This document shows positions 1 to 10,293 of a DNA stretch of 64,000 nucleotides, piece after piece. Source of the DNA: Comamonas sp. BIGb0152 (GTDB lineage Bacteria > Pseudomonadota > Gammaproteobacteria > Burkholderiales > Burkholderiaceae_C); the NCBI RefSeq assembly GCF_024809975.1, contig NZ_JANUDY010000002.1, positions 62,001-126,000 on the forward strand, read 5' to 3'. The notes beneath the pieces were generated by a model. That model was not told the DNA's origin. It searched no databases and was given only the letters and a program-made list of their open reading frames with translations. Position 1 is the first letter of the stretch. Each line of letters begins with the position of its first letter. The translations under genes and the position numbers were made by a program.

Positions 1-2
1 AC

Positions 3-965
3 ACACCGTTCCGCAGCTTTTGCCAGCGGCGCGGCGCCAGCCCGCGCACGGTCAAGACCTGGAGCGATATTCCCGCCGTGCCCATCGATGCCTTCAAGGC
101 GCTGGAGCTGCGCAGCGAGCCACCGTCGCCCACCGAGCGTGTGTTTATGACCAGCGGCACCACCGGCCGCGCGGCACGGGGCCGGCATTTTCATCCGGCC
201 TTGCAGGTCTATGACCTGTCGATGCAGCAGCATTTCGCCACCCGTTTTATGCAGGGCACCGCGCGCATGCCGATGGGCATCTTGTTCCCCGATGAAGCGG
301 CTATGCCCAACTCGTCGCTGGCGCATTACCTGGCGCTGGCCAAGTCGAGCTTTGGTACACCGGAGAGCCGTTATTTTCTGGGGCCGGAGGGCCTGGATAT
401 GGACGGGCTCTGCGCCGTGCTGGAAGCGGCCGAGCGCAAGGGCGAGCCCTATGCGCTGCTGGGCGCCAGCTTTAGCCTTGTGCACGTGATGGATGCGCTG
501 CGCGCCCAGGGCCGCCGCTTTGCGCTGCCAGCGGGCAGCCGCATCTTGGATACCGGCGGCTACAAGGGCCAGTCGCGCGAGCTGCCGCTGGCCGACTTTT
601 ATGCCGGCCTGACCGAGCTGCTGGGCGTGCCGCCCGAGCTGTGCATCAACATGTATGGCATGACGGAGCTGAGCACCCAGTTCTACGACAACGGCAATGC
701 CACCCTGCCATCCGTCAAATCGGGGCCGCACTGGATTCGCTCGCGCCTGGTGGAGCCCGTCAGCGGCCGCAGTGTGGCGCCGGGTGAGCGCGGCATTCTG
801 GTGCACTGCGACCTGGCCAACTACAACGCCGTCAGCACCATCCTGACGGAGGACGTGGGCCTGTGGGCCGATGGCGGCTTTTTGCTGCTGGGCCGGGCCG
901 AAGGGGCCGCTGCCAAAGGCTGCTCGCTGGCCGTTGACGAGTTTGTGCAAGCGGCGCGCGCATGA
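3..965 (+). CDS. LuxE-like acyl-protein synthetase (5' end outside window)
   Basis: The frame is open from base 3 through an internal GTG at 78, so the gene begins upstream of the window; 320 residues are visible against about 370 for the LuxE family. Seen: the adenylate-forming motif TSGTTG, the later motif MYGMTELSTQFYD, and a C-terminal KGCSL segment whose Cys (codon at 921) matches the position of the acyl-accepting Cys of LuxE. Family knowledge: LuxE activates a fatty acid with ATP and passes the acyl group to LuxC for reduction to the aldehyde. The next gene overlaps by 4 bp and encodes LuxC, which supports the call. No luciferase genes are in view, so the acyl substrate and purpose are unknown. 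Confidence 0.85.
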   Translation, partial: TPFRSFCQRRGASPRTVKTWSDIPAVPIDAFKALELRSEPPSPTERVFMTSGTTGRAARGRHFHPALQVYDLSMQQHFATRFMQGTARMPMGILFPDEAAMPNSSLAHYLALAKSSFGTPESRYFLGPEGLDMDGLCAVLEAAERKGEPYALLGASFSLVHVMDALRAQGRRFALPAGSRILDTGGYKGQSRELPLADFYAGLTELLGVPPELCINMYGMTELSTQFYDNGNATLPSVKSGPHWIRSRLVEPVSGRSVAPGERGILVHCDLANYNAVSTILTEDVGLWADGGFLLLGRAEGAAAKGCSLAVDEFVQAARA

Positions 966-2452
966 TGCCGCAAACCGCTGAACGCATACGGGCCGGCTAC
1001 TTGCCGGGCCTCGATGCAAACCAGCTGCGCTGGCAGGTGCTGGTGTTTGAGCGTGCGGGCCAGCGGCTGGAGGTCGAGGTGCCCGTGCTGAGCGGCGCGC
1101 AGATGCAGGCCCTCACCGAGCGCGTGCGTGCGGCCGCGCAGCGCCAGCTGCAGCCGATGCCGCTGACTGAGATCGTCGCCGCTATTGACCGCGCCATTGC
1201 CCGCCTGCTGGACCCGGCCGACCCGTATCGCCGCCAGATCGATGCCTGCCTGCCCCTTGTCTGCGGCTATGACGCGGCGATGGTGCGCCTGGGGCTCAAC
1301 GGCCTGTTCAAGACCTTTCGGGCGCCCCAGCTGTGGCGCTTTGTCGGCGAGGATTTTGCCAACCCTGGTGTGCTGGACGGCTTTGTGCCCGCCGCCAAGG
1401 GCGGTGCGGTGCGCGCCTATGGCCCGGGCCTGCTGCTGCACAGCTGGGCGGGCAATGTGCCTGCGCTGTCGCTGTGGAGTCTGGTTTGCGGCCTGCTCGT
1501 CAAAGCGCCCAGCGTGGGCAAGCTGGCCAGTGCCGAGCCGCTGTTTGCCGGCTGGTTTGCGCGCTTGCTGGCAGAAGTACATCCACCGCTGGCCGACTGC
1601 CTGGCGGTGGTCTGGTGGCCCGGCGGCGCGCAAACGGGCGACAGCGCCGAAGGCGCGCAGGTGCTCTACGCCGAGGCCGATACGGTGATGGCTTACGGCA
1701 GCAACCAGACCCTGGCCGCGCTGCGCCAGCAGCTGCCGGTAACCACCCGCTTTTTGCCCCATGGCCACAAGCTGGGCTTTGGCATGGTGGGCGCTGCGGC
1801 GCTGGATGCCGTCAAAGCCCCAGCCACCGCCCGGCTGGCGGCCTGGGATGTCATGCGCTATGACCAGCAAGGCTGCTACTCACCCCATGTGTTTTATATA
1901 GAGCGGGGCGCTACCGTCTCACCCCGCGCCTTTGCCGATTACCTGGCCGCCGAGCTGGCCAACCTGCAGCAGCGCTTTGCGCGCCGGCCGCTGGATCTGG
2001 AAGAGGGCGCCGGCCTGGCGCGCTGGCAGCAGTCGCTGGAGTGGCGCGCGCCTGCCGATGATGGCGCGCTCCCACAGCTGATTGGCCCGGCCGATGCGCC
2101 CTGGAGCGTGGCCTATAGCGACAGCCTGGAGCCGCTGGCGCCGACGGCGCTGTACCGCAGCATCGTGGTGGTGGCCGTGGACCGCCTGGACCAGGTTGTG
2201 CCCTTGGTGGCAGTCCAGCGCGACTACCTGCAGACCGCAGGCCTGGCGGTAGGCCCCGAGGATTTGTACCGTTTGGCGGGCCTGCTGGGCGCCGCTGGCG
2301 TCACCCGCATCAGCGCGCTGGGTGCCATGGGCGTGCCCGAAGCCGGTTGGCACCACGATGGGCGCTTTAGCCTGCTCGACCTGGTGCGGATGACCGAGAT
2401 CGATGCCGCAGCCGAGGCCGCTGCGCAGCCGCTGGCGCGCTACGCAGACTGA
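962..2452 (+). CDS. LuxC-like fatty acyl-CoA/acyl-protein reductase
   Basis: A 496-residue protein of the LuxC family, which reduces an enzyme-bound acyl thioester to an aldehyde with NADPH. Seen: LLLHSWAGNVPALSLWS and KAPSVGKLASAEP, typical of the aldehyde-dehydrogenase-like fold, and QQGCYSPH with the probable catalytic Cys at residue 305. The ATG lies inside the stop region of the LuxE-like gene (4-bp overlap), implying translational coupling. It is followed after 10 bp by an ABC transporter ATPase. LuxC is normally found with luxDABE in luminous bacteria; here it is with an importer and an SDR, so the aldehyde probably feeds another product. That last point is inference. Confidence 0.88.
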   Translation: MMPQTAERIRAGYLPGLDANQLRWQVLVFERAGQRLEVEVPVLSGAQMQALTERVRAAAQRQLQPMPLTEIVAAIDRAIARLLDPADPYRRQIDACLPLVCGYDAAMVRLGLNGLFKTFRAPQLWRFVGEDFANPGVLDGFVPAAKGGAVRAYGPGLLLHSWAGNVPALSLWSLVCGLLVKAPSVGKLASAEPLFAGWFARLLAEVHPPLADCLAVVWWPGGAQTGDSAEGAQVLYAEADTVMAYGSNQTLAALRQQLPVTTRFLPHGHKLGFGMVGAAALDAVKAPATARLAAWDVMRYDQQGCYSPHVFYIERGATVSPRAFADYLAAELANLQQRFARRPLDLEEGAGLARWQQSLEWRAPADDGALPQLIGPADAPWSVAYSDSLEPLAPTALYRSIVVVAVDRLDQVVPLVAVQRDYLQTAGLAVGPEDLYRLAGLLGAAGVTRISALGAMGVPEAGWHHDGRFSLLDLVRMTEIDAAAEAAAQPLARYAD

Positions 2453-2462
2453 AGGCGGCGCG

Positions 2463-3205
<743 letters not shown>

Positions 3206-3209
<4 letters not shown>

Positions 3210-3991
3210 ACCCGATCCTGAAAGCCCGGCTGGGGGCCGCCGCGCTGCTGGTGCTGCTGCTGGCGGGCTGGGAGAGCGCAGGGCGCTTGGGCGGGGTTTC
3301 GGCCCTGGTGCTGCCGGTGCCGTCGGCGGTGCTGCAGGCCTTGTGGTCGGGGCTCGCGTCCGGCTACTTTTGGCCGCACTTGCTGGCTACCGTGCAAGCG
3401 GTGCTGTTGGGGCTGGCAGCGGGTGCCTCCTTTGGGCTGCTGGTAGGCATGGTCTTGGCCGAATCGGTGCTGCTGGAGCGGGTGCTCAAGCCCTATGTGG
3501 TTGTCAGCCAGGTGGTGCCCAAGCTGGCGCTGGCGCCGTTGTTTGTGCTGTGGTTTGGCTTTGGCATGCTGCCCACGGTGCTGATCACGGCCTTGGTTTG
3601 CTTTTTCCCGCTGATGGAAAACACCTTGACGGGCCTGCGCCAGGTCGATGCCCAGCGGCTGCAGCTGTTTCGCATGCTGGGGGCCAGCCGCTTGCAGACC
3701 TTGCTGCGGCTCAAGCTGCCCACGGGGTTGCCCGCCATTTTGGCGGGCCTGCGCGTGGCCGTGGTGCTGGCGCTGGTGGGCGCCGTCGTCGCAGAGTTCA
3801 TGGGTGCCAGCCAGGGGCTGGGCGCGGTGGTGATCGCCTCCCAGGGAATGATGGACACCAGCTTGATGTTTGCCGCGCTGCTGCTGATTGCGGCGCTGGG
3901 CCTGCTGCTATACCAGGCCTGCATGCTGCTGGAGCGCAGATTGCTGCGTGGCCATGCGGTGGCTGCTGCCCCGGCAGGCCCACGTCATTGA
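3206..3991 (+). CDS. ABC transporter permease, SsuC/TauC type
   Basis: A 261-residue inner-membrane protein with about six hydrophobic segments, beginning with LGAAALLVLLLAGW near the N-terminus. The binding-protein-dependent permease motif is visible in the block from about residue 150 (RMLGASRLQTLLRLKLPTGL), the EAA loop that contacts the ATPase. Its start overlaps the ATPase stop. The substrate-binding protein gene follows after 41 bp. Family knowledge places it in the nitrate/sulfonate/taurine permease group. Confidence 0.87.
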
Positions 3992-4032
3992 CTTTTTTGG
4001 TATTTGCTTGATTGCTTTTGGAGGGACCGCTG

Positions 4033-5070
4033 ATGTCTGCACCTTTTCTGACCTATCCCGTATCGCGCCGCCGCTGGCTGGGCGCGTCTGCCAGCCTGCT
4101 GGGGCTGGGGCTGGCGGGCAGCGGCATGGCTGCGGGCGCTGCAAGTCCCGTCAGCGGCAAAATCCGCTTGGCCGGCTGGAGCAAGCCGATCAGCGAAATC
4201 ACCAATATCCTGGCCGAGCCGGACAAGGGCTTTTTCAAGGCCCAAGGGGTGGACCTGACTTACCTGCCTGGCGCAGGGGGCGGTGACGCGATCCGCAATA
4301 TCCTGAGCGGCCAGGGCGATGTGGCCTTTACCGATCCGGGCTCGTTCTTTATGGCGCTGGACAAGGGCGAGAAGCTGGTCGCCATCTATGATATCTACCC
4401 GCAAAACGTGTTCAATGTCGTCTCGCTGCGCTCCAGCGGCATCCGTACACCGGCGGATCTGAAGGGCAAGACCATTGGCGTCTATAGCCTGGCCAGCGGA
4501 ACGCGCCAGAACCTGCTGGTGATGCTGCACCAGGCAGGCCTCAAGGAATCGGATGTGCGCATTGTGGTGACCGGCCTGTTGAACTTTGCACCGCTGATGC
4601 AGGGCCAGGTCGATGCAACCGCCGCCACCGACACCGGCCTGGCCGTAGGTCTGCGCAAGGGCATGGGCGAGGTGCAGGTGATGCCCGTGCGCGACTACCT
4701 GAATATGTCCAGCGATATGTTTGTGGTGCGCCGGCAGATGCTGGAGCAGCAACCGGCACTGCTCCAGGCCTTTTTGCGCGGCTACCGCGACAGCGCGGCC
4801 TGGATGATGGCCCAGCCCGAGGAGGCTGCGACCTTGGCCACCAAGCGCGCCATCGATGGCACCCAGCGCGATATCAACCTCGATGTGATCGGCCTGCGCA
4901 ATGCCTCCGCCCAGCCGACCTTGCGGGTGCAGGGCAAGGTTGCGCCGCTGGGCAGTTTTGACCTGGCTGCGCTGCAAAAGGGCGCTGATGCCTACCATGC
5001 GCTGGGCATGGTGCAGCAGCCCATCCAGGTGGCCGATGTGGTGGACAGCCGTTGGCTGCCAGGGGCCTGA
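4033..5070 (+). CDS. ABC transporter substrate-binding protein, SsuA/NrtA-like
   Basis: A 345-residue exported protein. I chose ATG 4033, preceded by a GGAGGG ribosome site at about 4019-4024, over an upstream TTG. The N-terminus SRRRWLGAS followed by a hydrophobic stretch and an Ala-rich end looks like a Tat-type or long Sec signal. The mature part has the NMT1/SsuA-like pattern: FFKAQGVDLTYLPG, AFTDPGSFF, a LKGKTIGVYSLASGT hinge segment and GLLNFAPLMQGQVDA. It delivers an unidentified small anion or precursor to the permease encoded just upstream. Confidence 0.85.
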   Translation: MSAPFLTYPVSRRRWLGASASLLGLGLAGSGMAAGAASPVSGKIRLAGWSKPISEITNILAEPDKGFFKAQGVDLTYLPGAGGGDAIRNILSGQGDVAFTDPGSFFMALDKGEKLVAIYDIYPQNVFNVVSLRSSGIRTPADLKGKTIGVYSLASGTRQNLLVMLHQAGLKESDVRIVVTGLLNFAPLMQGQVDATAATDTGLAVGLRKGMGEVQVMPVRDYLNMSSDMFVVRRQMLEQQPALLQAFLRGYRDSAAWMMAQPEEAATLATKRAIDGTQRDINLDVIGLRNASAQPTLRVQGKVAPLGSFDLAALQKGADAYHALGMVQQPIQVADVVDSRWLPGA

Positions 5071-5071
5071 G

Positions 5072-5857
5072 ATGGTGGAGAGCAGTGCTTTGAATCTGCG
5101 CGGCAAGGTGGTGCTGGTAACGGGCGCCAGCCGGGGCATAGGTGCCGCCATTGCCCAGGCCTTTGCCCGCGAAGGCGCCACGGTGGCGGTGAACTACCTG
5201 GCCAACGAGGCAGCAGCCGCCCAGACCGTCGCCGCCTGCCAGGCCGCTGGCGGCAATGCCTGGGCGGTGCAGGCCGACGTGGGCAACCCGGCAGCGGTGG
5301 ACGCCATGGCCCAGGCCATTGCGCAAGAGGCCGGGCCCATCGACATCGTCGTGAACAACGCCTTGTGCCCCTATGCCTTTGACCCCGAGCGCCGACAGCC
5401 ACTGGATGCGCTGGCCTGGAGCGACTACCAGGCGCAGTTCGATGCGGCCGTGGGCGGCGCCTTCCATGTCTGCCGCGCGGTGCTGCCCCAAATGCGCCAG
5501 CGCGCCCGGGGCAGCATCGTCAATATCAGCAGCAATCTGGTGGATCACCCTGTCGTTGCGTACCACGACTACAGCACGGCCAAGGCCTCGCTGGTGGGCT
5601 TTAGCCGCAACCTGGCCAGCGAGCTGGGGCCCTTTGGCATACGGGTCAACTGCGTCGCCCCGGGCCTGGTCTACCCCACGCAGGGCAGCGCGCAAACCCG
5701 CGAATCCTTCCGCGAATCACTGATGGCCGCCACCCCGCTGCGCCGCCTGGCCAGCCCCGAGGATGTGGCCGGCCCGGTGCTGTTTTTGGCATCGGACCTG
5801 AGCCGGTTTATGACGGGGCAGGTGTTGCTGGTGGATGGGGGCTTGGTGATGCGGTGA
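5072..5857 (+). CDS. SDR-family oxidoreductase (FabG-like)
   Basis: A 261-residue short-chain dehydrogenase. Cofactor motif TGASRGIG is at residues 17-24, NNA at 95-97, catalytic Ser in NISS at about 153, and YSTAK gives Tyr167 and Lys171. The C-terminus GQVLLVDGG is typical of 3-oxoacyl-ACP reductase-like SDRs. ATG 5072 overlaps the stop of the binding-protein gene by one base, so it is the last gene of the LuxE-LuxC-ABC operon. By inference it could reduce or oxidise the aldehyde or a precursor; its substrate is not defined by sequence. Confidence 0.85.
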   Translation: MVESSALNLRGKVVLVTGASRGIGAAIAQAFAREGATVAVNYLANEAAAAQTVAACQAAGGNAWAVQADVGNPAAVDAMAQAIAQEAGPIDIVVNNALCPYAFDPERRQPLDALAWSDYQAQFDAAVGGAFHVCRAVLPQMRQRARGSIVNISSNLVDHPVVAYHDYSTAKASLVGFSRNLASELGPFGIRVNCVAPGLVYPTQGSAQTRESFRESLMAATPLRRLASPEDVAGPVLFLASDLSRFMTGQVLLVDGGLVMR

Positions 5858-6016: not shown

Positions 6017-7474
6017 ATGGCCAGCCGCGCCCTGGTATGGATACGCCGCGATTTGCGCTGCGACGACCATGCCGCTCTCTACCATGCCTTGCACCGCTTT
6101 GAGCAGGTGTACTGCGTCTTCGTTTTTGACACCGACATCCTGGATCTGCTGCCTACCCGAGAGGACAGGCGGCTGGACTTTATCCATGCCAGCGTGCTGG
6201 CACTGGACGAAGACTTGCGCCAGCTGGCGGCGGACCGTGGTGCGCCAGGCTCGGGGCTGCTGGTGCGCCATGGCTCGGCTGCGCAAGAGGTGGTGCAACT
6301 GGCGCGGGCGCTGGGTGTGCAAGAGGTGTTGACCAACCGCGACTACGAGCCCGAGGCCATCGCCCGGGATGCGCGGGTGGCCGGCGATCTGCAAGCGGCT
6401 GGCATTGCCTTTAGCGATTACAAGGACCAGGTGCTGCTGGACCGCGACGAGGTGCTGACCCAGCAAGGCCAGCCCTACAGCGTGTTCACCCCCTACAAGC
6501 GCGCCTGGCTGCAAAAGCTCGATGCCTTCCAGTGCAAGGCCTACCCGGTAGCGCGTTATGCCCGGCATTTGGCGGCGCTGCCAGCGGGCGAGGCAATACC
6601 GTCGCTGGCCGCTCTGGGCTTTAGGCCCAGCAATCTGGCATCGCTCAAGATCCCGACCGGCAGCCAGGGCGCTCAGCAATTGCTCAAAGATTTTTTGCCG
6701 CGCATGGCGGGCTACCAAGACGCGCGGGATTTTCCGGCGGTCAAAGGTGTCTCTTACCTGTCGGTGCATTTGCGTTTTGGTACGGTGTCCATCCGCCAGC
6801 TGGCGGGCCTGGCGGTGGCACAGGCGCGCACTGGTTGCGAGGGCGCGCAGACCTGGCTGTCCGAGCTGGCCTGGCGTGACTTCTACGCGATGATTCTTTG
6901 GCAGCACCCGCAGGTGGTGACCCAGTCGTTCCGCCCTATCTACGACCGGGTGCAGTGGGACGACGCCCCCGAGCTGTGGCAGGCCTGGTGCGAGGCCCGC
7001 ACCGGCTACCCGCTGGTGGATGCTGCCATGCGCCAGTTGCTGCAGACCGGCTATATGCACAACCGCCTGCGCATGGTGGTGGCCAGCTTCTTGACCAAGG
7101 ACCTGGGCATTGACTGGCGGGCGGGTGAGCGGTTTTTTGCCCAGCACCTCAACGACTATGACCTGTCATCCAACAACGGCGGCTGGCAGTGGGCGGCATC
7201 TACAGGCTGCGACGCCCAGCCTTGGTTTCGCATCTTCAACCCCATCACCCAGTCCGAGCGCTTTGACACGGACGGCAAGTTCATTCGCCGCTACCTGCCC
7301 GAGCTGGCCAAGGTGCCCGACCGGTATATCCACTTTCCGGCCGCGATGAAGCCGCTGGAGCAGCAGGCCTGCGGTTTGCAGCTGGGGCGCGATTACCCGC
7401 AGCCGGTGGTGGACCACGCCAGGGCGCGCGAGCGGACCTTGATGCGGTTTCACTTTATGAAAAACCCGGATTGA
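6017..7474 (+). CDS. phrB: Deoxyribodipyrimidine photolyase (class I CPD)
   Basis: A 485-residue photolyase that uses blue light, FADH- and an antenna pigment to split cyclobutane pyrimidine dimers. The N-terminal photolyase domain begins ALVWIRRDLRCDDH; the FAD domain shows LAWRDFYAMI at about residue 285 and SSNNGGWQWAASTGCDAQ at about 380-395, including the conserved Asn/Trp positions of CPD photolyases. Length matches E. coli PhrB. It stands alone: 159 bp separate it from the SDR gene upstream and 271 bp of apparently non-coding DNA follow. Confidence 0.93.
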   Translation: MASRALVWIRRDLRCDDHAALYHALHRFEQVYCVFVFDTDILDLLPTREDRRLDFIHASVLALDEDLRQLAADRGAPGSGLLVRHGSAAQEVVQLARALGVQEVLTNRDYEPEAIARDARVAGDLQAAGIAFSDYKDQVLLDRDEVLTQQGQPYSVFTPYKRAWLQKLDAFQCKAYPVARYARHLAALPAGEAIPSLAALGFRPSNLASLKIPTGSQGAQQLLKDFLPRMAGYQDARDFPAVKGVSYLSVHLRFGTVSIRQLAGLAVAQARTGCEGAQTWLSELAWRDFYAMILWQHPQVVTQSFRPIYDRVQWDDAPELWQAWCEARTGYPLVDAAMRQLLQTGYMHNRLRMVVASFLTKDLGIDWRAGERFFAQHLNDYDLSSNNGGWQWAASTGCDAQPWFRIFNPITQSERFDTDGKFIRRYLPELAKVPDRYIHFPAAMKPLEQQACGLQLGRDYPQPVVDHARARERTLMRFHFMKNPD

Positions 7475-7745
7475 CCGGGCAGACGCAGGCATAGGCAGCC
7501 TTAGGCAGTCACCAAGAGAACGACGGGGAGCCCCTGGTTCCCCAAAGCGGTCATCGGTTCAAAAACAGCTTGATGGCAGTCTGAGACTTGCCGCGGGATA
7601 GCCCTGTCCTTGCCTGCTGGTCAGCGATTGGCTGCCGAGTTGAGGATCGCCGGGTGTCGCGGGCATATCTATACTTGGATGTTCAGACAGGCGTCCGTTT
7701 TTAAAATCAGTGTCCAGAATATCCGCAGCTATTGCGGCTAGCACC

Positions 7746-8234
7746 ATGACCATCCCCTCACACGTTCTGACTATGTGGTCTGCATTCTCTTTGGAGGAAG
7801 GCGGAATCCAAGACGAAAGATTCTACGAAGCGTTTGGCTTCGGGGACTCGCCGTCTATGGCCGATGAACTCGGCCAACTCGTGCTGGCGGGCATTAAGTG
7901 CGCCACTGCCGGATCCGTCTGGTCCTACGAGTCGAGCGGCAAAGGCGTACCCAAGCCCGGCGACTTGAGCGTGGTAACTGATGCCAATGACATCCCTCTG
8001 TGCATCATCGAAACCGTGCAAGTCGATGTCATGCCGTTCAGTGCCGTGTCCGAGGAGTTTGCGGCTACGGAAGGAGAAGGGGATGGCTCCCTTGACTACT
8101 GGCGCAAAGTCCATGTCGACTTCTTCACACGCGAATGCGAAAGCTCAGGCCGCAGGTTCAGCCAAGACATGCTGCTCGCATGCGAGCGATTCCGGGTGGT
8201 CTATCCGCGAGAGGCAGGTACCAGGACAGCCTAA
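7746..8234 (+). CDS. ASCH domain-containing protein
   Basis: A protein of 162 residues from ATG 7746; GTG 7710 and ATG 7773 are possible alternatives because no clear ribosome site decides. The ASCH (PUA-like, predicted RNA-binding) pattern is clear: FGFGDSPSMADELGQLVLAG, KGVPKPGDLSVVTDAND, PLCIIETVQVDVMPF, and EGEGDGSLDYWRKVHVDFF. Some ASCH proteins are ribonucleases or amidohydrolases, but the role of this one is unknown. A degenerate copy of the window's short repeat lies 65 bp downstream. Confidence 0.8.
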   Translation: MTIPSHVLTMWSAFSLEEGGIQDERFYEAFGFGDSPSMADELGQLVLAGIKCATAGSVWSYESSGKGVPKPGDLSVVTDANDIPLCIIETVQVDVMPFSAVSEEFAATEGEGDGSLDYWRKVHVDFFTRECESSGRRFSQDMLLACERFRVVYPREAGTRTA

Positions 8235-8298
8235 GCCCTCGCGCAAGCGGTGCGCCAACGGCGCCACCTTGCGCCTGGCTTGCGTTCTGAGACCTCCG

Positions 8299-8342
8299 CG
8301 TTCAGACCAGGGAAGGGACGGGAGTTTTACAGCGGGTCCCTA
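8299..8342. repeat. Short repeat element, degenerate terminal fragment (copy 1 of 5)
   Basis: The segment from GTTCAGACCAGGG to GGGTCCCTA resembles the GTTCAG...CCTCCCTA end of the full element at 13674-13838, with several mismatches. Its terminal CCCTA reads TAGGG on the minus strand and its TAG is the stop codon of the histidine kinase gene. Only one end of the element is recognisable. Confidence 0.55.
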
Positions 8343-9572
8343 GGCTGCGGGGCGCATGTTCAGCATAAAGCGGCAACCTTTTTCCGAGCTTTCGACCGCC
8401 ATGTGCCAGTTCAGGTGCTCCACGATGCGTTGCACGATGGACAAGCCAAGCCCTTCACCACTGAGGCGTGCGCTGGCTGAAAAGCGCTGAAATTGCTGCG
8501 GATCGATGCTGGACGGCAGGCCCGGTCCGGAGTCAGAGATGACCAGCATGGTGTCGTAGAGGGCGATGCGCACTTCGCCTGCTTCCGTGTATTGGCAGGC
8601 GTTGCGCAGCAGATTCCAGATCACGCTGCGCGCCAGTTCGGCGTTGGTATGCGCGTGGGTGTTTTGCGGCGCATCCAGAACCACGGCCACCGTTTTTTTG
8701 GCCAGCCAGGGTTGGCATCGTGTAATGCATTCCTCGATCAAGGGACGCAAAGGCACATCGGCCCGGGCCAAGGTGTGTGGATCGCGTGAGAGCAGCAACA
8801 GACACGTCAGCTGGCGTTGCATTTCCTGCGTGGTGCGCACGATGCGCTCTGCACTTGGAACCAGGTGGCTTTCTGCAGGCAATTGGTGCACGATGGTTTC
8901 CGCCGCACCGGCAATGATGGCCAGCGGCGTGCGCAATTCATGGCTGGCATCTCCGACAAAGCACTGTTCGCGCTGCAGGAACTGTTCGAGCTCATCGCTG
9001 TGCTGCGCAAAGGCGCGCGCCAGCACGCCGATTTCATCATGCGCATCCTGGAAGGGGAAGGGCTTTTGCTTGCGCTCAACGGCTCGCGCCAAGCGGGTAA
9101 TGGGGGCGGTAACGCGTGCCGACGTCAGTCTCCCGATCCAAAACGCGCCCAGCACACACAGCAAGATGACCAGCGGCCCGAAACCGTCAATCATGTATTC
9201 CAGATACGCGTGGTTCCCACCATTTTGGAGGAGGTAGTAGCGCTGGTCGTTGATCTCAAACACCAGCAGGTGCCAGTTTCGGGGTTCTTTCAAGCTGTGG
9301 AAGCCTGGCGCGTATTGGCGCAGCGCATCGGGCACGGTCTTGGCGTCATAGAGCTGCTGGCCTTCAGGCGCGGTGGGGGGGATGCCTTGGGCAATATCGG
9401 CCTGTAGCCGAGGCAGCTCGTTGTGCAGACTTTGGGAGGCCACATGCGCTCTCAGCTCGTCGTAGTCAAGTTGCTCCGCCACGACCACGATCCCCATGAC
9501 GGCCACCATCAGCAGCACGAACGAGACCGTAATGCGCGTCCTGAGAGTCATCCGCTGGTAGATGGATTTCAT
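8340..9572 (-). CDS. Sensor histidine kinase (OmpR-partner type)
   Basis: A 410-residue membrane kinase. I chose ATG 9572 (MKSIYQRMTLRTR), 25 bp after the response-regulator stop, rather than an upstream start inside that gene. TM1 is at about 16-34, a periplasmic sensor of roughly 95 residues follows, TM2 is at 133-150, then HAMP, the dimerisation box DASHELRTP with His211, the N box WNLLRNACQYT and a G box SGEGLGLSIV. It presumably phosphorylates the response regulator encoded immediately upstream in the same operon. The signal is unknown. Its stop codon lies in the end of a short repeat element. Confidence 0.88.
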   Translation of the reverse strand: MKSIYQRMTLRTRITVSFVLLMVAVMGIVVVAEQLDYDELRAHVASQSLHNELPRLQADIAQGIPPTAPEGQQLYDAKTVPDALRQYAPGFHSLKEPRNWHLLVFEINDQRYYLLQNGGNHAYLEYMIDGFGPLVILLCVLGAFWIGRLTSARVTAPITRLARAVERKQKPFPFQDAHDEIGVLARAFAQHSDELEQFLQREQCFVGDASHELRTPLAIIAGAAETIVHQLPAESHLVPSAERIVRTTQEMQRQLTCLLLLSRDPHTLARADVPLRPLIEECITRCQPWLAKKTVAVVLDAPQNTHAHTNAELARSVIWNLLRNACQYTEAGEVRIALYDTMLVISDSGPGLPSSIDPQQFQRFSASARLSGEGLGLSIVQRIVEHLNWHMAVESSEKGCRFMLNMRPAA

Positions 9573-9597
9573 GAGGCTTGTTCTGTTCTTTGCGAGA

Positions 9598-10293
9598 TTA
9601 TTCCGGCACAACCACCCCGGGTTCACGCAGGCGCCAACCGATGCCATGCACCGTTTCTATGAGCGCGCATGTGAAATTTTTGTCAATCTGCTGGCGCAAG
9701 TCATGGATGTGCGTGCGCAAGGCACCGCTTTCGGGCGGATCATCGCCCCAGAGCAGGTATTCCATGGCCTGCTTTTTGACGACTGCAGGTGCGGCGCGCA
9801 TCAGACATAGCAGCAATTTATGGGTGGTTGGTGTCAGCCGGATAGCCTGGCCCTGTCGCGATGCCTGTGGCGCCAGGGCTTCCACCCGCAGATCTTCCCA
9901 GACCAGCGCGCCTTGCACTTGTCGGCCTTGGGCCCGGCGCACCAAGGCCTTGATGCGTGCGTCGAGCTCTTTCAGTGAAAAGGGTTTGACCAGATAATCG
10001 TCCGCCCCCAGCGCAAAGCCTTGCACGCGGTCATCGACCGGATCGCGCGCGGTCAGCATCAGCACCGGAACGGGATTCTGAAACTCCTGGCGGAGTTTGT
10101 GGCACAGCGCCATGCCATCCAGGCGCGGCAGCATCAGATCCAACAAGATGACGTCGTAATCGTTTTGCGTTGCCATACGCAGGCCCGTGGCGCCATCGCG
10201 CGCATCTTCCAGTACATAGCCTAGTGGCTCGAAAAAATCGTAGAGGTTGGCCACCAACTCGGGGTTGTCTTCGATGATGAGCAGGCGTGTCAT
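9598..10293 (-). CDS. Response regulator, OmpR/PhoB family
   Basis: A 231-residue DNA-binding regulator. The receiver domain (about 1-115) has the acidic pair in IIEDN, phospho-acceptor Asp52 in LLDLMLP and Lys103 in YLVKPFS. The C-terminal winged helix ends HDLRQQIDKNF and ETVHGIGWRL, typical of the OmpR class. It is the first gene of the pair with the kinase downstream. About 400 bp of non-coding DNA upstream carries its promoter and a deleted repeat copy. Confidence 0.9.
   Translation of the reverse strand: MTRLLIIEDNPELVANLYDFFEPLGYVLEDARDGATGLRMATQNDYDVILLDLMLPRLDGMALCHKLRQEFQNPVPVLMLTARDPVDDRVQGFALGADDYLVKPFSLKELDARIKALVRRAQGRQVQGALVWEDLRVEALAPQASRQGQAIRLTPTTHKLLLCLMRAAPAVVKKQAMEYLLWGDDPPESGALRTHIHDLRQQIDKNFTCALIETVHGIGWRLREPGVVVPE

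Follow-up and report, generated by a model that had tools for sequence, protein, structure and literature searches.

A TPP riboswitch-linked LuxE-LuxC operon in Comamonas and its relatives as a probable salvage route for the pyrimidine of vitamin B1

The 64,000-nucleotide stretch of Comamonas sp. BIGb0152 analysed here (contig NZ_JANUDY010000002.1, positions 62,001 to 126,000; hereafter the window) begins inside an operon that encodes homologs of the LuxE and LuxC subunits of fatty acid reductase, a three-gene ATP-binding cassette (ABC) importer and a short-chain dehydrogenase/reductase (SDR), and that is preceded by a thiamin pyrophosphate (TPP) riboswitch. We propose that this operon probably serves to salvage the pyrimidine half of vitamin B1, by importing 4-amino-2-methylpyrimidine-5-carboxylate and reducing it to hydroxymethylpyrimidine (HMP). 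The link to vitamin B1 and HMP as the product are well supported; this particular acid is proposed because it would yield HMP by the chemistry of LuxE, LuxC and an SDR. The operon is laid out as follows.

G000:C2:61727-61818 (182-273 bases left of window base 0), leader of luxE: TPP riboswitch RF00059, from the Rfam model
1..965 in the window (start at G000:C2:61883), + strand: luxE-like acyl-protein synthetase (PF04443; profile match to 7xc6)
962..2452, + strand: luxC-like acyl thioester reductase, with Cys305 in YDQQGCYS (PF05893; 7xc6 chain A)
2463..3209, + strand: ABC importer ATPase, SsuB/ThiZ-like (ABC_tran)
3206..3991, + strand: ABC importer permease, SsuC/ThiX-like (BPD_transp_1)
4012..5070, + strand: NMT1/THI5-like substrate-binding protein (PF09084, 168.7 bits; fold model)
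5072..5857, + strand: SDR, proposed to catalyse the step from aldehyde to HMP (adh_short)

The strongest pointer to vitamin B1 is the riboswitch. In the Comamonas genome it scores 50.2 bits (E 8e-9 in a search of 701 bases, E 1.4e-8 in the whole genome) and is one of three TPP riboswitch matches, none of which reaches the Rfam gathering score; the second (52.6 bits) lies before thiC and the third (35.5 bits) is at thiO, within the thiG region, and adjoins thiD. An Rfam scan of eight loci found a TPP riboswitch above gathering before the operon in six (two from Azospirillum and one each from Pantoea, Pseudomonas, Lactiplantibacillus and Niallia, the last with a tandem pair), and a more sensitive scan placed one of 49.0 bits, below gathering, before the operon of Priestia. 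A covariance model with 12 base pairs only, built from nine aptamers of eight loci that are themselves within the 90 scanned, gave 89 matches across those 90 loci (1.55 Mb); 88 of these precede the operon and fall in 87 loci. The single match elsewhere (L114) is followed by a thiO and thiG stretch, and no match was obtained for L063, L101 and L116, which are contigs that begin inside luxE. The same model found nothing in six loci that carry other LuxC genes. Independently of it, the model of the Rfam family was applied to 20 genomes or records, representing 20 of the 90 loci, and matched at the operon riboswitch in every one, 12 times over the gathering score and 8 times at 49.0-54.1 bits. Judged from its position, the riboswitch would place the operon under the control of TPP.

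The six-gene arrangement is itself conserved. A genome scan returned 350 LuxC relatives among 385 candidate stretches, and our counts use the best 80 of these 350; since almost all of them carry betaproteobacterial titles (one reads Pantoea, another only Proteobacteria), the locus counts describe mainly a betaproteobacterial group. Together with nine plasmid loci and the Comamonas locus itself they make up the 90 loci, which were searched with profiles of the six proteins. All six genes occur together in 77 of the 90, and in 65 of those 77 they stand in exactly the order listed above, the other 12 departing from it through frames that are split or overlap, or through an additional weak SDR frame. 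With so many related loci carrying the whole set, the six-gene order is far beyond chance. The remaining 13 loci comprise five with luxE-luxC-SDR, one that is broken up and seven whose contig breaks off within the operon.

Among plasmids, two from Azospirillum and one from Priestia megaterium have the same six-gene order, two from Pantoea have luxE-luxC-SDR and no importer, and those of Lactiplantibacillus, Levilactobacillus and Niallia have permease-luxE-luxC-SDR. The linkage of riboswitch and operon thus spans proteobacteria, Bacillus relatives and lactobacilli, its breadth within Bacillota being judged from the plasmid records of Priestia, Niallia, Lactiplantibacillus and Levilactobacillus, four in all. 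Within the GTDB genus of the window, this LuxC occurs in 30 of 53 genomes (once as a fragment at a contig end), and it is also present in one genome from another genus of the same family; three more matches among 100 genomes are 27-30% identical and were taken as other LuxC proteins.

Three of the loci deserve separate mention. The broken-up operon is on plasmid p1 of Pseudomonas silvicola (L039, ~6703-10000), where a TPP riboswitch is followed by fragmented luxE, luxC and SDR frames; it is either a decaying copy or the outcome of sequencing errors. The record titled Pantoea sp. 18069 (L046) holds a Comamonadaceae-like operon, its LuxC 77% identical to that of the window, and its name is doubtful for that reason. 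On the Niallia taxi megaplasmid (L037, 4540-4836) tandem TPP riboswitches precede ThiW, an NCS2 permease and luxE-luxC-SDR.

The thiamin genes around the operon and elsewhere in the same genomes point to the pyrimidine. ThiC is the de novo HMP synthase, and ThiD, a bifunctional HMP/HMP-P kinase, phosphorylates HMP, the pyrimidine of vitamin B1. In 14 of the 90 loci, mostly titled Ramlibacter, thiD lies between the riboswitch and luxE; two of these were checked and score ~319 bits with TIGR00097 (cut-off 205). Genomes with thiD in the operon lack thiC in 11 of 14 cases versus 5 of 66 for the others (Fisher p 1.2e-7, an optimistic value given related, non-independent genomes and incomplete assemblies), and among the 50 isolates alone thiC is absent from 5 of 5 versus 1 of 45. 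Thiazole synthase, ThiG, was found in 20 of 20 genomes tested, two assemblies having partial genes; these included 11 of the 16 that lack thiC, and all 11 were positive. The operon thus goes together with a lost pyrimidine branch and a retained thiazole branch, thiC being gone while ThiG is kept. In six Ramlibacter loci the flanking sequence retrieved with the operon contains a stretch of thiO or thiG. The Comamonas genome has both thiC and ThiG, and its thiD is located away from the operon.

In a Variovorax group (L084, L085 and L094) the leader between riboswitch and luxE is longer. Two of these leaders still match the ends of thiD weakly (26.2 bits in L085 and 20.2 bits in L094), so an operonic thiD may have been lost there.

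Both Lux-type proteins belong to their families and stand well apart from the enzymes of bioluminescence. LuxC scores 245.6 bits with PF05893 (Pfam gathering cut-off 21) and LuxE, on its truncated frame, 54.8 bits with PF04443 (24.9). The NCBIfam equivalog models for bioluminescence are far under their cut-offs, at 46.1 of 550 bits for the truncated LuxE and 67.6 of 750 for LuxC. Of all solved structures, the profiles of both proteins matched the LuxC-LuxE complex 7xc6 and no other, its LuxE being found with a profile of LuxE relatives (E 1.1e-32) and its chain A with that of LuxC (E 1.2e-38). The C-terminal Cys347 of LuxE is invariant across 31 sequences and Cys305 of LuxC across six, and the cysteines of both proteins align with those of the genuine luxCDE set of pOX38, which we take to be the catalytic ones. 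Earlier examination of the window without database searches (the sequence-only reading) had held that these catalytic cysteines are intact, and the alignment upholds it. Identity to that luxCDE set is 22-25% for LuxC and 21-24% for LuxE. In a tree of 36 LuxC the 30 that are riboswitch-linked group as a single clade (99/99) that excludes the other six, the lux LuxC among them; the outgroup branches of this tree are long, and the joining of the Niallia and lactobacillus rows towards the outgroup may be false. Current annotation of such pairs is 'long-chain fatty acid--CoA ligase' and 'acyl-CoA reductase'.

Pairs of an acyl-protein synthase and LuxC also occur without a TPP riboswitch on Streptomyces and Chloroflexota plasmids (L156, L158 and L159), in the company of an MFS transporter and a GNAT protein, next to DUF692, and alone; these are other, uncharacterised uses of LuxE-LuxC.

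A structure model of the binding protein (mean pLDDT 83.4) has as its first Foldseek match ThiY 3ix1 (E 4.6e-22, TM 0.70), whose ligand is the vitamin B1 pyrimidine N-formyl-4-amino-5-aminomethyl-2-methylpyrimidine (FAMP), followed by the thiamin-bound 4nmy, an unknown Bordetella protein, SsuA and the yeast HMP synthase Thi5. In Niallia and Lactiplantibacillus a permease of the nucleobase-type NCS2 family replaces the ABC importer, and such a permease fits a pyrimidine cargo. By its own account the sequence-only reading would be refuted by importer genes separable from luxCE, and in part they are separable: the importer is missing from the Pantoea operons and gives way to the NCS2 permease in Niallia and the lactobacilli, while the riboswitch and the luxE-luxC-SDR core stay in place.

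From the operon, its riboswitch, the linkage of thiD, the loss of thiC with ThiG kept and the conserved cysteines, all of them observed, we infer a substrate, a direction of reaction and an order of chemical steps. When TPP is scarce the operon would be expressed, and the ABC importer would take up the oxidised pyrimidine of vitamin B1, 4-amino-2-methylpyrimidine-5-carboxylate. LuxE would adenylate the carboxylate with ATP and carry the acyl group as a thioester on its C-terminal cysteine; the acyl group would then pass to the active-site cysteine of LuxC and be reduced with NADPH to the 5-aldehyde. Activation by LuxE and reduction by LuxC are established chemistry of the two families. The SDR would convert the aldehyde to HMP, and ThiD, operonic in some relatives and encoded elsewhere in the Comamonas genome, would convert HMP to HMP-PP for the synthesis of thiamin phosphate. 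A pyrimidine carboxylate is said, going by the title of a 1964 paper, to be a thiamin metabolite in rat urine. The sequence-only reading was thus right, in our judgement, that an importer feeds a pathway from an acid to an aldehyde or alcohol.

Several observations weigh against this proposal. The exact acid is one we infer from the enzyme class and the product. The Comamonas riboswitch is slightly under the Rfam gathering score of 54.3, and the leader sequence is no more prone to fold than shuffled versions of it (z -0.30), so that a leader hairpin hiding the ribosome site, visible in the fold, is given no weight. By fold, SsuA sulfonate binders come close behind ThiY (E 2.2e-19 versus 4.6e-22), and by sequence the binding protein matches 3qsl and 4nmy before 3ix1, which is third (E 9.5e-10). 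The LuxE model (mean pLDDT 81.7) has as its top fold matches the putative acyl-CoA ligase 4r1m and PaaK phenylacetate ligases (E near 1e-9), and the LuxE chain of 7xc6 is absent among the 50 fold matches listed. ThiC is present in 64 of 80 operon genomes (44 of 50 isolates and 20 of 30 others, mostly metagenome assemblies), and most of them therefore do not need the route; even with thiD in the operon, 3 of 14 genomes retain thiC. Another genome (L102) lacks thiC and has thiD in the operon, yet has thiM. Finally, the Niallia riboswitch transcript also holds ThiW, a component of a thiamine-precursor transporter, presumably for the thiazole; its presence could mean that this organism salvages both halves of vitamin B1, or that the substrate is a thiazole.

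Alternatives that keep the vitamin but change the compound have to be set beside these points. The operon may conceivably serve pyrimidine salvage with another acid as the substrate of LuxE, either a different pyrimidine acid or a product of HMP oxidation in the cytoplasm, the importer carrying another precursor, for instance HMP or an amine. We regard this as unlikely, though it is the least unlikely of the alternatives: the Pantoea operons, with riboswitch and luxE-luxC-SDR and no importer, and the varying type of importer among loci speak for it, whereas 77 of 90 loci have the ABC importer within the operon, and a permease gene stands ahead of luxE in the same transcript in Niallia and two lactobacilli, a linkage suggesting that what is imported is also the substrate. 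If the operon instead salvaged the thiazole, methylthiazole acetic acid would be reduced to hydroxyethylthiazole (HET) and phosphorylated by ThiM. Thiazole acids are thiamin catabolites, ThiW stands in the Niallia transcript, and thiM is over the cut-off in 8 of 50 operon-bearing isolates. The other 42, however, have no match at 1e-10; thiM is over the cut-off in none of 37 genomes of the window's genus (two have weak matches of ~20 bits) and in 2 of the 61 genomes examined overall; the kinase encoded in the operon is ThiD and not ThiM; and the thiC-less operon genomes tested retain ThiG. These results make a thiazole substrate improbable.

Repair of the whole oxidised vitamin, from thiamin acetic acid to thiamin, would also account for the TPP riboswitch, and by fold the runner-up match of the binding protein, 4nmy, has thiamin bound. 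It would leave thiD, operonic in 14 loci, useless, and thiamin pyrophosphokinase was found in none of 41 genomes including that of Comamonas (ThiK was not searched for); we give this alternative very little credence. Still less probable is what the sequence-only reading had suggested, a fatty aldehyde or alcohol that goes into a signal, a pigment or a lipid. Membership of the LuxE and LuxC families speaks for it; against it stand the low identity to true LuxC and LuxE, the separate clade, and two features that point to salvage of the vitamin B1 pyrimidine, namely the riboswitch, which precedes the operon at 87 of the 90 loci, and operonic thiD in 14 of them. Thiazole, whole thiamin and fatty acids are thus disfavoured as substrates.

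The layout of the operon agrees with what had been read from the letters of the window, six genes in one direction with gaps of 41 bp or less, open reading frames and Pfam families concurring: the six frames form one operon with gaps of -4 to ~+41 bases, luxE and luxC overlapping by 4. The edge of the window cuts luxE, its true start lying 117 bases left of base 1. For the ATPase the first in-frame start is at 2403, and the ATG at 2463 gives a family-like start; the binding protein starts at TTG 4012 or possibly at ATG 4033. Because the class-II aldolase gene upstream of luxE runs in the opposite direction, luxE is the first gene of the operon. The absence of a luciferase or LuxD nearby was confirmed by extension to the left: luxA and luxB are absent from the six-gene operon (the flanks of other loci were not searched for luciferase), and the nine longest minus-strand frames of 12 kb upstream include neither luciferase nor LuxD (no genome-wide search for luciferase was made), which disposes of a luciferase just beyond the window edge. 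Those upstream frames (L003, 678-11406, minus strand) are a separate divergent gene set that comprises, by Pfam, the class-II aldolase, a dipeptide-type ABC transporter, a D-2-hydroxyacid dehydrogenase, a class-III aminotransferase, a histone-deacetylase-type amidohydrolase and an EamA transporter, and that perhaps serves breakdown of an amine or amino acid.

Among known systems the proposal comes closest to salvage by ThiXYZ, YlmB and TenA, which likewise starts from a damaged vitamin B1 pyrimidine, uses an ABC importer of NMT1/THI5 type (ThiXYZ) and ends in HMP and ThiD. As given in PMC10470507, that pathway leads from FAMP through 4-amino-5-aminomethyl-2-methylpyrimidine (AmMP) to HMP by YlmB and TenA and hydrolyses an amide and an amine, whereas the operon described here would reduce a carboxylate by LuxE, LuxC and an SDR. 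The LuxC-LuxE fatty acid reductase of bioluminescence (7xc6) shares homologous subunits, aligned cysteines and neighbouring genes, but the proteins here are only 21-25% identical, lack luxA, luxB and luxD nearby, and follow a TPP riboswitch. Carboxylic acid reductases (CAR) also convert an acid to an aldehyde with ATP and NADPH, but are unrelated single-chain enzymes with a carrier domain. The TPP-regulated transporters ThiW, CytX and ThiXYZ share the uptake of vitamin B1 precursors linked to a riboswitch; we know of no case in which they are coupled to a carboxylate reductase. RegPrecise may, we presume, list the operon as an uncharacterised regulon member (gene name oarX). The system is apparently undescribed, as the sequence-only reading had surmised: no report of the operon was found, nor any description of a LuxC-LuxE pair in vitamin B1 metabolism, in the open-access literature including the TPP-regulon survey PMC3766115 apart from its supplementary operon tables.

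It is fairly likely, then, that an unrecognised branch of vitamin B1 salvage extends from lactobacilli to betaproteobacteria, in which LuxE and LuxC spend ATP and NADPH to re-reduce a pyrimidine carboxylate supposed to be a dead end, and that some Ramlibacter have given up de novo synthesis of HMP and live on this branch. The proposal gives a concrete, testable function to a widespread LuxC/LuxE pair and extends Lux-type acid reduction beyond lipids to the salvage of a vitamin. A pyrimidine carboxylate is predicted to be a vitamin B1 vitamer that microbes could trade, and, if the proposal is true, an environmental pool of this acid would act as a vitamin precursor. Such a branch would explain the pyrimidine source of thiC-less Ramlibacter and would alter genome-based predictions of vitamin B1 auxotrophy.

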